Source: Alkalicoccus daliensis (GTDB lineage Bacteria > Bacillota > Bacilli > Bacillales > Salisediminibacteriaceae). Taken from it: a stretch of DNA of 64,000 bases. Below are positions 22,714 to 48,040 of the stretch, piece after piece (the first letter of the stretch is position 1; every line of letters starts with the position of its first letter). A program made the translations under genes and the position numbers. The DNA lies in NCBI RefSeq assembly GCF_900103955.1, contig NZ_FNIL01000013.1, positions 1 through 64,000 of the forward strand. The letters are read 5' to 3'. The notes beneath the pieces are model-generated. The model searched no databases, was not told the origin of the DNA, and was given only the letters and a program-made list of their open reading frames with translations.

Positions 22714-23081
22714 GGGGACGTTCTGGATTCGACAGGGATAGGTCGGATTTACGTGGCGAGTCGAGCTGAGTGTCCTCGTAAAAACGCTCACCTTGCCTAT
22801 AGCTGGCAAACAAGAAGATTCTTTCGCACTAGCAGCGGCGTAACAACCCTGCTTGCGGTTCCACCCTTCATCACCCACGTGAAGGATCATGGGACTCACT
22901 CTAGTGGGTTACGGTATGGTTTCCTCCACCTGAGGAAACCTGCAGGAGATTAATCAGGTTAGCCATACGGAAGCCTGTTGGTTGGCTGACGTATCGGCGA
23001 AATATAATAAATCAACTACGCTCGTAGAAGCGTAGGTCACGTTATCCCTGGACGCGGGTTCGATTCCCGCCGTCTCCACCA
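22714..23081 (+). ncRNA. ssrA: Transfer-messenger RNA (tmRNA)
   Basis: This is a one-piece tmRNA of about 368 nucleotides. The 5' end GGGGACG pairs with CGTCTCC before the encoded ACCA 3' end; GTTCGATTCCCGCC forms the T arm. The resume codon is GCT at 22802, and the frame reads (A)GKQEDSFALAAA before TAA at 22841-22843. The tag keeps the ALAA degradation signal but ends in three Ala. It rescues stalled ribosomes with SmpB, encoded just upstream. Confidence 0.97.
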
Positions 23082-30108: not shown

Positions 30109-30133
30109 GTTCACATCCAAAAAACATATTAAA

Positions 30134-30310
30134 CTTATCCAGAGCGGTGGAGGGACTGGCCCTATGAAACCCGGCAACCATTAGGCGTTTTACGTCTGAA
30201 AGGTGCTACATCCTGCAAAGAGTCCGCTCTTTGGGAGATAAGATTATGATTCTGCAGAAGAATACATATCTCAACTCCCGGAGTGCATTAAAGCTCCAGG
30301 AGTTTTTTTT
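30134..30310 (+). promoter_or_regulatory. SAM-I (S-box) riboswitch, first of a tandem pair
   Basis: The aptamer (30134-30242) is closed by P1 CTTATC/GATAAG and contains the S-box core AGAGCGGTGGAGGGACTGGC, then CCCGGCAACC and AAGGTGCTACATCCTGC. A terminator (30274-30310, ACTCC/GGAGT with an internal mismatch, then T8) follows. High S-adenosylmethionine should stabilise the aptamer and allow termination. No gene stands between it and the second riboswitch, so its only visible target is the metY operon by read-through. Confidence 0.96.
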
Positions 30311-30471: not shown

Positions 30472-30642
30472 CTCTTATCCAGAGCGGCGGAGGGACTGGC
30501 CCGATGAAGCCCGGCAACCACTGAGTATTTTACTTGGAAGGTGCCAAATCCTGCAGAACTATTTTTAGTTCTGAAAGATAAGGGAGAGCTCGTTATTCGC
30601 GTACTTGCATCTCTCTATCTTTCACAGGTAGAGAGATTTTTT
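30472..30642 (+). promoter_or_regulatory. SAM-I (S-box) riboswitch, second of the pair
   Basis: The aptamer (about 30472-30586) again shows AGAGCGGCGGAGGGACTGGC, CCCGGCAACC and AAGGTGCCAAATCCTGC, closed by CTTATC/GATAAG. The terminator at 30609-30642 has a nine-base-pair stem, ATCTCTCTA/TAGAGAGAT, and T6. metY begins 410 bases later, beyond a family A repeat. It should switch off the metY operon when S-adenosylmethionine is abundant. Confidence 0.96.
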
Positions 30643-32837: not shown

Positions 32838-32869
32838 ATAAATTTAACTAATTACAGGAGTGATTATTG

Positions 32870-33847
32870 ATGAAGAAAACGTTAGCAGGAACAGCAGCGG
32901 CAGCCGCCGTATTATTAGCAGGGTGCTCAGGAGAATCAGACGCTGGCGCTTCATCACCCGAAACGATCACTGTAGATTACGCCTACTATTCTCCGACTAG
33001 CCTTGTGCTGAAGGATCAGGGCTTTCTGGAAGAAGTTTTCGCAGATGAAAATGTGGAATTTGAATATGTGCTCAGCCAGGGAAGCAACAATGCATTGGAA
33101 TTTCTTTCTGGAGGAAGTGTAGATTTTGGGTCCTCTGCAGGTGCTGCGGCATTAATGGCAAAGGGTAATAATGCTCCAATTAAAAACGTTTATGTTTATT
33201 CACAGCCTGAATGGACAGCACTTGTTACCGGCGAAGGCAGCGAGATTACCTCTGTCGAAGATCTTGCAGGGAAAAAAGTAGCGGCAACGCTAGGAACAGA
33301 CCCTTATATTTTCCTGGTAAGAGCTTTGGACGAAGCCGGAATGAGTGAAGACGATATTGAAATTGTGCCGGTTCAGCATAATGATGGAGCAAACTTACTT
33401 GCAAATGGCGAAGTAGATGCCTGGGCAGGTCTGGATCCGCACATGGCCCGACAGGAACTGGAAATTAATGCAGAACTGTTTTACAGAAATACAGACTTCA
33501 ATACGTACGGCTTCCTGAATGTACGGGAAGAATTTGCAGAAGAATATCCTGAAGCTGTAGAAAAAGTAATTGAAGCCTATGAACTGGCAAGAGAGTGGGC
33601 AATTGAAAATCCGGAAGAAACAGTAGAGATCATTGTAGAAGAAGCGGGCATTGATGCTTCCGTAGCGGAGCTCCAGCTGGAAAGAAACAACTTCGATAAC
33701 CCGCTGCCGGGACAGGAGCACATAGACAGCCTCAGCGCTGCAGGAGAAGTATTACAGTCCTCCGGAAATCTGGATGATACCTTAAGCGTGGATGAATTAC
33801 TGGATGATCTTATTGATCCATCCTTTGCAGAAGAAGTGATTGAGTAA
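32870..33847 (+). CDS. ABC transporter substrate-binding lipoprotein, SsuA/TauA/ThiY-like
   Basis: This lipoprotein of about 325 residues has a signal peptide and lipobox LLAGCSG (lipidated Cys about 19). The NMT1/SsuA-type fold is indicated by DYAYYSPTSLVLKDQGFLEE, QGSNNALEFLSGGSVDFGSSAGAAAL and AWAGLDPHMARQE. Relatives bind aliphatic sulfonates, taurine or thiamin precursors. The ATG at 32870 is preferred to the adjoining TTG. It is followed by matching permease and ATPase genes. The SAM-controlled setting points to a sulfur compound; the exact ligand is not determinable. Confidence 0.9.
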   Translation: MKKTLAGTAAAAAVLLAGCSGESDAGASSPETITVDYAYYSPTSLVLKDQGFLEEVFADENVEFEYVLSQGSNNALEFLSGGSVDFGSSAGAAALMAKGNNAPIKNVYVYSQPEWTALVTGEGSEITSVEDLAGKKVAATLGTDPYIFLVRALDEAGMSEDDIEIVPVQHNDGANLLANGEVDAWAGLDPHMARQELEINAELFYRNTDFNTYGFLNVREEFAEEYPEAVEKVIEAYELAREWAIENPEETVEIIVEEAGIDASVAELQLERNNFDNPLPGQEHIDSLSAAGEVLQSSGNLDDTLSVDELLDDLIDPSFAEEVIE

Positions 33848-33909
33848 AGGAACATAACTGTTTCTGTTTGATTAAATAATTGTTAAAAAGAAAAAGGAGG
33901 CGGTGACAC

Positions 33910-34761
33910 ATGGCTATTTCTCAGGGACATCATGCCGAAAAGGAATCCGTGTTTAAATCAGTAATTAAAGTAAAACAGAAGGAACGACAAGGCATGCCGG
34001 CTTTCCTGAAAACAGCCGGTCTCGCTCTCCTTTTCCCAATTCTGCTTCTTGCACTTTGGGAAGGAGTGACCAGATTCGGTCTTGTAGCGGGACACCTGCT
34101 CCCCGCTCCTTCCGAGATTGTAGGCACGATCTGGGCGATGGGCGTAGACGGAAGCTTATGGGGCCATATGGGCATTACCCTTTACCGCCTTCTTTGGGGC
34201 TTCTTCTGGGGAACAATTGTCGCAGTAGTTATCGGCTCCCTTGTCGCTATGTCCAGAAATGCGGAAACAATGTTTGATCCGCTGATTCAGGCGTTTCGGG
34301 CAATTCCTTCCCTCGCCTGGGTTCCTTTATTTATCCTTTGGCTTGGTATCGGTGAACCATCAAAAGTAACTTTAATTGCGCTGGGTGTATTTTTTCCTGT
34401 GTATTTAAATGTAGTCGGCGGAATTCACTCTGTGGACCGGAAATTAATAGAAGTCGGAAAAGCATACGGCCTCAACCAGTTTCAGCTCGTCCGCCGGATA
34501 ATTTTACCTGCTTCGCTCCCTTCATTTCTTACGGGACTTAGAAGCGGCCTCGGCCTCGGCTGGATGTTTGTCGTTGCGGCGGAGCTTCTCGGAGCAAGCC
34601 AGGGGCTTGGTTATTTACTTGTACTCGGACAGAATACGCTGTCTCCGAATGTAATTCTTGCAAGCATCGTATTGTTTGCGTTTTTAGGAAAAGTGACAGA
34701 CTATGCTCTGAAAAAGCTGCAAACACGGGCTTTGCACTGGCAGGATAATATGAAAAATTAA
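33910..34761 (+). CDS. ABC transporter permease, SsuC-like
   Basis: The 283-residue BPD-type permease has about six transmembrane helices and the EAA loop (EVGKAYGLNQFQLVRRIILPASLP, shown in part) that docks the ATPase. An N-terminal cytoplasmic extension of about 35 residues precedes the first helix. It sits between the binding-protein and ATPase genes with a GGAGGCGG site. It should form a homodimer in the membrane. Sulfonate-type specificity is inferred from family and context. Confidence 0.9.
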   Translation: MAISQGHHAEKESVFKSVIKVKQKERQGMPAFLKTAGLALLFPILLLALWEGVTRFGLVAGHLLPAPSEIVGTIWAMGVDGSLWGHMGITLYRLLWGFFWGTIVAVVIGSLVAMSRNAETMFDPLIQAFRAIPSLAWVPLFILWLGIGEPSKVTLIALGVFFPVYLNVVGGIHSVDRKLIEVGKAYGLNQFQLVRRIILPASLPSFLTGLRSGLGLGWMFVVAAELLGASQGLGYLLVLGQNTLSPNVILASIVLFAFLGKVTDYALKKLQTRALHWQDNMKN

Positions 34762-34776
34762 CGGAGGAGATTCCTT

Positions 34777-35526
34777 ATGAGCATACAGGTGGATAAAGTC
34801 AGCAGAACCTTTCAGGGAACACTTGCTGTAGATGAAATTTCTTTTGAAGCAAAGCAGGGAGAAATTGTAGGGCTGCTAGGAACGAGCGGCTGCGGAAAAA
34901 GTACGATCCTTCGAGCTATTTCGGGTCTGGACACAGAGTATGACGGCACGGTGTGTATTCATGGAAAAGAAACACGCGGAACTTCCCGGGAGCTTGGTGT
35001 GATCTTCCAGGAGCCGCGGCTGATGCCATGGCTCACGGTAATTGATAACGTCTGTTTCGGTCTTACCGGGACGAAAGAAGAAAATCGTGAAAAAGCACGG
35101 GAGATTTTGCGTGTCGTAGGGCTCGAAGATTTTGAACAGCATTACCCGAAGCAGCTTTCGGGAGGCATGGCGCAGCGAACTGCAATTGCGCGTGCGCTCG
35201 TTACCGCTCCTTCGACTCTTCTTCTGGATGAACCTTTCAGTGCGCTGGATGCGTTCACGAAGCTGCAGCTGCAGGATATGGTGTTGGAGCTTTGGGAAAG
35301 CTACAAACCTACAATGGTAATTGTGACACATGATATTGATGAAGCCTTATACCTGTGTGACCGGATCGTTATTTTAAAAGGTCAGCCGGGGGAACTGCAC
35401 GATAATCTGGAAATTACCCAGCCCAAGCCCAGGAAGAAATCAGATACAAAGCTCGCAGAATTAAAAGAATATATATTAGAAAGCCTGGATATAAGCCGCA
35501 CCCCTAAACAGCGTAAGGAGGCATAA
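34777..35526 (+). CDS. ABC transporter ATPase, SsuB-like
   Basis: The 249-residue ATPase has Walker A GTSGCGKST (about 35-43), a Q-loop FQEPRLMPW, signature LSGGMAQRTAIARAL, Walker B LLLDEPFSALDA and the H-loop VTHDIDEA. The RLMPW sequence after the Q-loop is common in the nitrate/sulfonate/taurine subfamily. It energises the preceding permease. Its stop overlaps the next start by one base. Confidence 0.93.
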   Translation: MSIQVDKVSRTFQGTLAVDEISFEAKQGEIVGLLGTSGCGKSTILRAISGLDTEYDGTVCIHGKETRGTSRELGVIFQEPRLMPWLTVIDNVCFGLTGTKEENREKAREILRVVGLEDFEQHYPKQLSGGMAQRTAIARALVTAPSTLLLDEPFSALDAFTKLQLQDMVLELWESYKPTMVIVTHDIDEALYLCDRIVILKGQPGELHDNLEITQPKPRKKSDTKLAELKEYILESLDISRTPKQRKEA

Positions 35527-37211
35527 TGATGACTATTTTAAAAGCAGCAGAAAATGCGAAAGTCAAAGCAAATTTCACTAAAGACGGAGGGGCCGTCAAT
35601 TTTTCCTGGGAAGATGCCGTAAATGGGCTTGCAAAAGTCCCGGAAGGAAAGTGGAACGCGGCCTATGAATGTATCGACCGTCATGTGGAGGAAGGATATG
35701 GAGCAAAAGAGGCACTTTTGTTTACAGACGGTACAGAAGACCGGTCATTTACGTTTGAGGAAGTAAAGAAGATTACTGATGACTATGCACGCGTGTTGAA
35801 AGCGGAGGGAGTATCCGTGGGAGACCGCGTATTTATTTTTCTTCCTAAATCGCCGGAGTGCTACTTCGCTATTTTAGCAGCTATAAAAGTTGGAGCCATT
35901 GCAGGGCCGCTGTTTGAAGCGTTTATGGAAGACGCCGTCCGTGAAAGAATGCAGGACTGTGAAGCGCAGTACTTAATTACAGATGATGTATTAACAAATA
36001 GAGTGCCTTATAAAGATATTACTTCTCTTATAAAAACGTGGCATCTTGATGATCTGGAAGCAGAGGCCGAAGCATTACAGGGTGGAGAAGAGCCGATCGA
36101 ATGGATGGGGGAGCAGGACAGCATGCTGATTCACTATACTTCCGGTTCAACAGGCCAGCCGAAAGGGGTGCTTCATGCACAGAAAGTGCTGCCGCATCAC
36201 TTCATTACCGGTCGCTGGGTACTGGATATTCAGGATGATGATGTCTACTGGTGCACTTCACACCCTGGCTGGGTAACAGGCAGTGTGTACGGCGTATTTG
36301 CTCCGTGGCTTAATCGTGCGACAGTAGTCATTCACGGCGGGCGGTTTGATGCAAAAGAATGGTATGGCCTCCTGGAACGCTTCGGCGTAACTATATGGTA
36401 CAGTGCGCCTACCGCTTTTCGCATGCTGATGAGTGAAGGCGATGTGTACCGTGAATTTGATCTTTCCAAGCTGCGCCATATGCTCAGTGTAGGAGAGCCA
36501 TTGAATCCGGAAGTAATTCATTGGGCAAAAAGAGCTTTTGACGTAAGAATTCACGATACTTGGTGGATGACAGAAACCGGGGGCCATCTCATCGTGAATC
36601 TCCCTTCAGAAACAATTAAACCAGGTTCTATGGGAAGAGCGTTTCCAGGTGTGGAAGTTGGAATTCTTGATGAAAAGAATCAGCCGCTGCCGGCATACGA
36701 ACCAGGAAAGCTTGCAATCAAAGCGCCGTGGCCGGGTTTAATGAAGGAAATCTGGAAAAACGAAGAGAAGTTCCAATCCTATTTTACTGAAAATGGATGG
36801 TACATCTCAGGTGATACTGCATTTCAGGATGAAGAAGGATATGTTTTCTTTCAGGGAAGAGACGATGATCTCATTAAAACAGCTGGAGAACGGGTAGGGC
36901 CTTTTGAGGTGGAATCGAAGCTGATTGAGCACCCTGCGGTGGCGGAAGCAGGTGTTATTGGAAAACCGGATAAAATAAGAGGACAGATTATTAAAGCATT
37001 TATTACGCTCCGCCATGGTTATGAAACGAGCGAAGCACTGGAGAAAGAAATCAGTTTGTTTGTCCGGAAAAATCTTGCAGCGCATGCAGCACCCAAAGAG
37101 ATTGAAGTCGTGAATGAACTGCCAAAAACCAAAATCAGCGGAAAAATTCTTCGGCGGCTGTTAAAAGAGCAGGAGCTGGAGAAAATGGAAAAGGAGGAAC
37201 TGACAACATGA
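35526..37211 (+). CDS. AMP-forming acyl-CoA synthetase, acetyl-CoA synthetase-like
   Basis: The 561-residue ANL enzyme has the P-loop YTSGSTGQPKG, the DTWWMTETGGH motif similar to the acetate pocket of Acs/AcsA, GRDDDLIKTAGERVGPFEVES and the C-terminal catalytic Lys in KTKISGKILRR. It should activate a short acid, probably acetate or propionate, to its CoA thioester. It is embedded between a sulfur-type transporter and homoserine dehydrogenase and overlaps both neighbours. It may therefore supply acetyl-CoA for homoserine acetylation (inference). The Trp/Met of WWM differs from the usual WWQ, so another small acid is possible. Confidence 0.85.
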   Translation: MMTILKAAENAKVKANFTKDGGAVNFSWEDAVNGLAKVPEGKWNAAYECIDRHVEEGYGAKEALLFTDGTEDRSFTFEEVKKITDDYARVLKAEGVSVGDRVFIFLPKSPECYFAILAAIKVGAIAGPLFEAFMEDAVRERMQDCEAQYLITDDVLTNRVPYKDITSLIKTWHLDDLEAEAEALQGGEEPIEWMGEQDSMLIHYTSGSTGQPKGVLHAQKVLPHHFITGRWVLDIQDDDVYWCTSHPGWVTGSVYGVFAPWLNRATVVIHGGRFDAKEWYGLLERFGVTIWYSAPTAFRMLMSEGDVYREFDLSKLRHMLSVGEPLNPEVIHWAKRAFDVRIHDTWWMTETGGHLIVNLPSETIKPGSMGRAFPGVEVGILDEKNQPLPAYEPGKLAIKAPWPGLMKEIWKNEEKFQSYFTENGWYISGDTAFQDEEGYVFFQGRDDDLIKTAGERVGPFEVESKLIEHPAVAEAGVIGKPDKIRGQIIKAFITLRHGYETSEALEKEISLFVRKNLAAHAAPKEIEVVNELPKTKISGKILRRLLKEQELEKMEKEELTT

Positions 37212-38419: not shown

Positions 38420-38452
38420 ACCTTTACGATGTGCTTATCGTAAAGGTATTTT
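38420..38452 (+). terminator. Terminator of the metY-hom operon
   Basis: ACCTTTACGAT and ATCGTAAAGGT form a perfect 11-base-pair stem with a six-base loop, followed by ATTTT. It separates the operon from the DsbA-like gene. Confidence 0.85.
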
Positions 38453-38512
38453 CCTATGAATGAGCCGTGAAATATACCATAATAGGAAAAGACATCAGAA
38501 AGGATGATATTT

Positions 38513-39106
38513 ATGACATTGAAAGTTCGCATTTACAGCGACTTTGTTTGACCATTCTGCTATTTAGCGGAGGCTCCGCTATTTCGGGCAATAGAAGGAA
38601 AAGAGGCAGAAATCGAATGGCTGCCGTTTGAGCTGCGCCCTTATCCAAATGAGACCTTAAGTCCACACAGCGATTATATCCAGCAGGCATGGCATCAATC
38701 AATACTCCCTATTGCAGAGCAGCTGAATGTAACGATGAATTTGAATATGACCGACCCGCAGCCTCACACGCACTATGCACATGAAGGACTGCTGTTTGCA
38801 AAAGAGCATGATAAAGGAAATGAGTACGCGCATAAAGTGTTCCGTGCTTTTTATGAAGATGGGATAAATATCGGTGATATCTCAGAGCTTCGTAGAATAG
38901 CGGAAGAAACGGGGCTTCCTGGAGAGGACTTCAGCCAGGCGCTGGAGGACAGAGTTTATTCCGACGCAAGAGAAGCTTCGATAAGAAAAGCGTACGAGGA
39001 AGGCGTGCAGGCTGTGCCTACCTTTTACATTGGAGATAAAAAACTCACCGGGCTTCAGTCACAGGAAGCATACGAAAAAGCAGTAACAGAGGCAGAAACC
39101 GAATAA
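38513..39106 (+). CDS. DsbA/FrnE-family thiol oxidoreductase, candidate selenoprotein (in-frame TGA)
   Basis: From ATG 38513, with AAAGGATG upstream, the frame reads MTLKVRIYSDFV, then TGA at 38549-38551, then PFCYLAEAPL and stays open to TAA at 39104-39106, 197 residues in all. The TGA is exactly where FrnE-type DsbA proteins carry the first, nucleophilic Cys of CPxC. The rest is intact: helical insertion and the cis-Pro loop AVPTFYIG. A seven-base-pair hairpin with a GGC loop begins 13 bases after the TGA, fitting the bacterial SECIS model. It would use selenocysteine at residue 13. Alternatives are a nonsense mutation or sequence error. There is no other good start before 38735. Confidence 0.72.
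38565..38581 (+). promoter_or_regulatory. Candidate bacterial SECIS hairpin
   Basis: TAGCGGA-GGC-TCCGCTA is a perfect seven-base-pair hairpin with a three-base loop starting with G. The loop lies 20 bases after the in-frame TGA. The bSECIS model asks for a stem of at least four pairs, a 3-14 base loop with a G in its first two positions and a TGA-to-loop distance of about 16-37; all are met. Confidence 0.65.
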
Positions 39107-47875: not shown

Positions 47876-48040
47876 CTTCTTATCACGAGAGGTGGAGGGA
47901 CTGGCCCTATGAAACCCGGCAACCACTAAGCTGCTGCTTAGAAGGTGCCAAATCCTGCGGAATTTATTTCCGGCAGATGAGGAGAAAGACTTTATTTATA
48001 GAGCCTTTCTGCTTATCAGTAAAGCAGGAGGGCTTTTTCT
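47876..48040 (+). promoter_or_regulatory. SAM-I (S-box) riboswitch of metNPQ
   Basis: The aptamer (47876-47984) has P1 CTTCTTATC/GATGAGGAG, the core GAGGTGGAGGGACTGGC, CCCGGCAACC and AAGGTGCCAAATCCTGC. A terminator follows at 48002-48040 (AGCC...CTGCTT paired with AAGCAG...GGCT, then a T-rich tract). S-adenosylmethionine should switch off methionine uptake. It occupies the centre of the 512-base gcvH-metN gap. Confidence 0.96.

Follow-up and report, generated by a model that had tools for sequence, protein, structure and literature searches.

The gene at 38513-39106 of the window, by which we mean the whole 64,000-nt stretch of DNA analysed here, seems at first sight to be broken by a stop codon, and the question it raises is whether translation ends at this TGA or whether the codon is read as selenocysteine (Sec). 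The evidence speaks strongly for the latter, and we put the probability that the gene encodes a selenoprotein, with Sec inserted at UGA codon 13 by means of a downstream hairpin, at roughly 96 %. The window lies on contig C18 of a 3.78-Mb Alkalicoccus genome (Bacillaceae, NCBI order Caryophanales), and the gene with its associated elements is on the forward strand.

The interrupted frame and its hairpin

The frame at 38513-39106 comprises 198 codons and ends in TAA, its only internal stop being the TGA of codon 13 (38549-38551); it translates as MTLKVRIYSDFV-TGA-PFCYLAEAPLF..., the TGA standing in the context DFV-TGA-PFCYL. The first-pass annotation had described a frame interrupted by this TGA alone, exactly at the first Cys of a CPxC motif, open on both sides and with the cis-Pro loop kept, and each of these points was borne out: the motif is by homology a CPFC of the DsbA/FrnE type, a Cys codon occupies the same site in 60 copies of the subfamily, and the codon CCT for Pro169 is present at 39017-39019. 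With TGA as Sec the product would have 197 residues and would be, on profile, structure and alignment matches, a FrnE-type DsbA-like thiol oxidoreductase, in which Sec13 is the first catalytic position of UPFC and Cys16 (38558-38560) is presumed to be the resolving Cys. UPFC at 13-16, including Cys16, and P169 are invariant in a 12-row ortholog alignment (A1), so that the protein has both the CXXC motif, in Sec form, and the cis-Pro by which DsbA/FrnE proteins are recognised; the cis-Pro role of Pro169 is one that we take over from the thioredoxin fold. A ribosome-binding-site match, AAAGGA (38499-38504, by eye), stands 8 nt 5' of the ATG.

Just 3' of the TGA, folding gives a bSECIS-like hairpin with a 5' arm TAGCGGA (38565-38571), an apical loop GGC with G first (38572-38574) and a 3' arm TCCGCTA (38575-38581), that is, a perfect stem of 7 bp closed by a 3-nt loop, with a stem-loop energy of -8.5 kcal/mol. 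The stem begins 13 nt and the loop 20 nt after the TGA; the seven-pair hairpin with a G-first loop reported earlier is therefore real, its distance of 20 bases, however, being true only of the loop. Published rules for bSECIS elements (model of PMC13188914, as given there) ask for a loop of 3-9 nt, a stem of 4-16 bp, a G in the first two loop positions, a loop 16-37 nt after the UGA and an MFE of -7.5 or lower, and the window hairpin falls within every one of these limits (7 bp, GGC, 20 nt, -8.5). Taken singly, the fold is unexceptional for its composition (z -1.05 and z -1.25 in two runs), and the energy z-score of the window sequence was set aside as uninformative; the hairpin weighs mainly by its conservation in relatives and not by the energy of a single fold. 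That TGA and hairpin together are more than coincidence, as argued earlier, is borne out by a search of the window for frames joined across a TGA (a start codon 5 or more codons ahead of the TGA, at least 100 open codons after it, and less than 70 % overlap with ORFs of at least 130 aa). It found two such frames, with downstream folds of -15.4 kcal/mol for this gene vs -2.2 kcal/mol for the other.

A terminator-like inverted repeat (38420-38447, 12 pairs, T-rich tail) lies between the upstream gene and the selenoprotein gene and suggests that the latter is transcribed apart, the signal being weak (one repeat found against a shuffle mean of 0.8). In eight loci compared (L048-L055, gene names by eye), a secY-like gene follows 3' in 8/8 and an upstream dehydrogenase-like gene is common to 5/8. 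The window also holds genes read by eye as an ABC transporter substrate-binding protein, permease and ATPase, then an acyl-CoA-synthetase-like gene (32867-37211), as well as a tmRNA with the tag GKQEDSFALAAA and three SAM riboswitches, of which two are ~230 nt apart (22714-23081, 30132-30244, 30472-30584 and 47877-47983).

Selenocysteine machinery and the TGA across relatives

No match over cut-off to a sel gene was found in the 64,000-nt window, where ARAGORN finds only the tmRNA, in agreement with the first-pass annotation, which had placed the required machinery elsewhere and held that its absence from the genome would refute the reading. All four components are present over cut-off within ~6 kb of one another on another contig, C15: tRNA-Sec (59.2 bits; ARAGORN anticodon tca), selB (387 bits), selA (518.2 bits) and selD (401.6 bits), each over its curated cut-off and selD with an in-frame TGA of its own (KKAGUGCKIGP). 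A protein search of the genome found a single place, the window's own gene, which is a plausible client of the Sec machinery besides SelD. Formate dehydrogenase was considered as a client in this genome and rejected, none of four formate-dehydrogenase-like matches having an internal stop.

Within the family, 27 of the 35 genomes searched gave a match to the window protein. Twelve orthologs, counting the window gene, all carry the hairpin motif and have their TGA at one shared codon (12/12); the other 11 are 59-76 % identical to the window gene, each with one single TGA in an otherwise open frame, and residues 7-20, on either side of the TGA, do not vary across the 12-row alignment A1. Close relatives with scattered stops, which would have indicated decay, were thus not seen among the 11 orthologs, and because all of them have the same TGA a sequencing error is unlikely. 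Two remoter family copies (38-40 % identity) also have TGA, and the other 13, of FrnE type with 25-33 % identity, divide into 8 TGA and 5 Cys copies. selA is over cut-off in 28/35 family genomes; five genomes at least 99 % complete (G008, G009, G023, G029 and G030) have neither selA nor a TGA copy, and the two family genomes with TGA and without selA are both incomplete, namely G005 (80 %), where tRNA-Sec and selB are over cut-off, and G017 (76 %), where neither is.

The search across the order covered 397 genomes drawn from a larger group, of which at least 367 matched the search profile and 181 have selA over cut-off. Places were taken down to about E 7e-33 among the matches listed, plus one further locus (L165), so that sampling of FrnE-type copies beyond the family is very thin. 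Window-subfamily places were combined with those of the family search, keeping copies whose frame runs uninterrupted across the site once TGA is allowed, and this gave 97 copies in 91 genomes. Left out were the named loci L048-L071, partly from the same genomes, the second fetches L072-L075, L163 (motif located at a wrong place, class TCT, group B), L071 and L166 (no motif) and L062 (decayed, missed by the scan); five of the named loci (L056, L057, L059, L060 and L063), unmatched to counted genomes, are further TGA copies, all with the motif.

The catalytic codon is TGA in 37 of the 97 copies (36 genomes) and Cys in 60, the two states that an alignment of homologs had been expected to reveal. 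The motif GCGGAGnnnCCG is present in 37/37 TGA copies vs 0/60 Cys copies, and exactly one in-frame TGA occurs in 36 of the 37, vs none in any of the 60. The machinery goes with the codon: selA is over cut-off in 34/36 genomes with a TGA copy vs 15/55 Cys-only genomes (Fisher p 6e-11, kinship ignored), being absent from two TGA genomes (G005 and G405) and 40 Cys-only genomes, and tRNA-Sec is over cut-off in 45/48 TGA-bearing genomes (groups A, B and C) vs 15/32 others searched, the three without it being G017, G065 and G405. Among these, the G405 copy (L117, G405:C17:167907-168476) has TGA and hairpin, yet its genome, 99 % complete, has no selA, selB or tRNA-Sec over cut-off; the assembly may have a gap there, or the machinery may have been lost recently, and the case counts against the rule. 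The G065 copy (L165, G065:C32:45011-46237), of FrnE type, has TGA at the catalytic codon and no hairpin within the bSECIS rules; selA and selB are over cut-off in this 200-contig assembly and tRNA-Sec is not.

These distributions bear on the possibility that the gene is a pseudogene, in which a nonsense change at the catalytic Cys stops translation after 12 residues. One base suffices to turn a Cys codon into TGA, and decayed relatives do exist: L166 has two TAA and one TAG, L062 has several stops, and L132 is the exception among the 37 TGA copies, a decaying duplicate. However, all three bear damage beyond the catalytic codon, whereas the same TGA recurs in 37 copies from 36 genomes, 36 of them with no further in-frame stop across the matched region, and the hairpin goes with it, which leaves decay of the window gene very improbable. 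As the copies were chosen as open with TGA read through, the set by itself cannot prove that TAA and TAG are absent from the site; among the subfamily places listed, non-TGA stops occur in G299 only and lie after the site. In L132 (G053:C28:230753-231931) a second TGA replaces a Trp codon and the cis-Pro is lost; its contig also carries an intact TGA copy (L100), ~209 kb away.

A still smaller chance attaches to termination at the TGA with re-initiation at 38735, where an ATG opens a 123-aa ORF of the standard code (38735-39106 in the ORF list): the C-terminal product would have neither the active site nor the first strand, and the invariance of residues 7-20 in the 12 rows is what is expected if they are translated. 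That a suppressor or a changed genetic code makes TGA mean Cys or Trp would suit the Cys found in the other 60 copies and is just as remote, since TGA also serves as a normal stop, terminating 4/42 window ORFs of at least 200 aa, and the TGA copies accompany a hairpin and selA that general suppression would not need. The reading as a selenoprotein, first offered as a candidate, is supported by the machinery in the genome, the intact relatives and the tie between hairpin and TGA.

Constraint on the RNA and exchange between Sec and Cys

Codon usage downstream of the site differs between the two classes of copies. Codons +6, +7 and +9 are GCG, GAG and CCG in 37/37 TGA copies, while Cys copies that encode these residues have GCG in 4/35, GAG in 3/31 and CCG in 12/50, and position +8 holds A, V, F or S in 37/37 TGA copies vs K or Q in 33/60 Cys copies. 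Folding of the next 48 nt, compared with synonymous-codon controls, gives a mean z of -1.39 in TGA copies and +0.34 in Cys copies (Mann-Whitney p 1.3e-11), with 9/37 and 2/60 copies, respectively, reaching p 0.05 singly. A hairpin of bSECIS geometry at -5 kcal/mol or lower occurs in 37/37 TGA vs 5/60 Cys copies; without the energy limit 39/60 Cys copies also have one, and the stem-loop alone reaches -7.5 in 16/37 TGA and 2/60 Cys copies.

Hairpin covariation, which had been proposed as a check on homologs, was not found. The 37 TGA rows hold no compensatory stem changes, the stem being nearly invariant; a set of eight FrnE rows has one varying pair (GC/GU/AU), matched by 289/500 shuffles, and four rows of a third group have one varying stem pair, not above shuffles. 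As the stem hardly varies, covariation is uninformative and lends no support as proof of the hairpin. TGA copies outside the window subfamily mostly have hairpins of their own: that of FrnE-type copies is different, with a GGA loop placed 29 nt past the TGA in 8/9, and that of the third group is distal (34 nt, 3/4).

Sec and Cys appear to have been exchanged more than once. A tree of 117 copies with the Sec column masked implies 12 Sec/Cys changes, 6 of them forced by well-supported branches, and a tree of 97 copies in which the Sec residue and those after it, 13 in all, are masked implies ~8, of which 3 are forced. There are only three supported independent Sec/Cys contrasts; the hairpin follows Sec in 3/3, and selA differs in just ~0.7 of the 3, so that the link with selA is owed chiefly to deeper splits. 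One Cys copy that groups with TGA copies (L086, G146:C3:41932-42510) keeps the full hairpin stem with the first loop G changed to A. This hairpin is likely a relic of a Sec ancestor, the genome still having selA and selB, and relic hairpins after a Sec-to-Cys change have been described before (in PMC1794560).

Four genomes hold TGA and Cys copies of the subfamily together, and with the close Sec/Cys pairs and the relic hairpin they make the old question of when Sec repays its cost testable on natural enzyme pairs. More tentatively, and at somewhat less than even odds, FrnE-type seleno-DsbAs may account in large part for the retention of the Sec machinery in many Bacillaceae-like bacteria, with at least three hairpin types (a GCGGA stem in the window subfamily, a GGCGUC stem in FrnE proper and a distal CUUAACC stem in the third group), repeated Sec/Cys exchange and a hairpin that shapes the protein at residue +8.

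Predicted function and known DsbA-like selenoproteins

The read-through protein matches the DSBA domain PF01323 (114.6 bits vs a cut-off of 25.6, E 6.3e-33), and its nearest solved structure by sequence is Deinococcus FrnE (5cp1, E 5.9e-15). An AlphaFold2 model built with 23 aligned sequences has a mean pLDDT of 96.4 and a thioredoxin-type fold, its best solved Foldseek match being FrnE again (5co3, TMq 0.85). None of the NCBIfam models searched with the protein was over cut-off; NF041057 (Rcas_1661 family (seleno)lipoprotein) was rejected at 32.5 bits vs a curated cut-off of 190. By eye, no signal peptide is seen.

In the mechanism that we propose, SelB with Sec-tRNA(Sec) would bind the mRNA hairpin just 3' of the UGA, and Sec would be inserted at codon 13 in place of termination. 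The product would be a cytosolic thiol oxidoreductase of FrnE type and DsbA fold whose active site reads Sec-Pro-Phe-Cys, Sec13 acting as the attacking selenolate and Cys16 resolving the mixed selenenylsulfide. We infer redox direction, substrate and physiological role, as we do Sec insertion itself; by analogy, the protein is most likely a disulfide reductase or isomerase of the cytosol, and its likeliest role would be to reduce or isomerise protein or low-molecular-weight disulfides during oxidative stress.

FrnE of Deinococcus radiodurans (DR_0659; PDB 5co3, 5cnw and 5cp1) is the nearest solved relative in both sequence and fold. It is described in PMC8945050 as a predicted cytoplasmic thiol oxidoreductase with a CPxC active site, deletion of frnE giving greater sensitivity to oxidative treatments. 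At 25-26 % identity, it has Cys where the window protein has Sec, and the window protein, in which Cys16 is the sole cysteine, lacks the C-terminal CXXXXC of FrnE. YjbH and the cytosolic disulfide reductase DsbM (PDB 6ghb and 5hfi) belong to the same fold class by Foldseek at 16-19 % identity, a likeness that carries no sequence evidence of shared function. Likened by description, Lmo1059 of Listeria is a Cys-type DsbA-family protein that has the same CPFC motif in Cys form, and PMC10715225 credits it with GSSG reductase activity and a part in oxidative stress tolerance.

Under the standard code the locus shows only the 123-aa fragment, and automatic annotation would likely cut such genes short; read through, it reveals an enzyme that is conserved and probably depends on selenium, present in this form in 36 of the 91 genomes compared that have the subfamily. 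In the open literature searched (subscription journals and preprints lying outside it), the portions available held no report of this subfamily, of its near-invariant hairpin or of repeated Sec/Cys switching, which is weak evidence of absence, and no paper was found there on Alkalicoccus with selenocysteine or on DsbA-like proteins with selenocysteine in Bacillota. The 2006 survey gives three selenoproteins in three families for Bacillales (PMC1794560), and the DsbA-like counts of 41 and 45 in the 2016 survey (PMC5029168) may include members of the window's order.

The kind of protein is already known, since DsbA-like selenoproteins appear in both the 2005 study and the 2026 review. They are described as COG2761 / PF01323 proteins with UxxC, or as 'DsbA-like protein form 1' (PMC1088965, PMC1794560, PMC13188914 and PMC5029168); the 2005 study assigned nine from the Sargasso Sea to COG2761 (PMC1088965), and the 2026 review lists DsbA-like under PF01323 with UxxC (PMC13188914). 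Examples named in these sources come from marine metagenomes and from anaerobes such as Anaeromyxobacter and Desulfovibrio, and the comparison with them is by description and not by sequence. With these known DsbA-like selenoproteins the window protein shares the Pfam domain, a UxxC motif with Sec in first place and a bSECIS element downstream.
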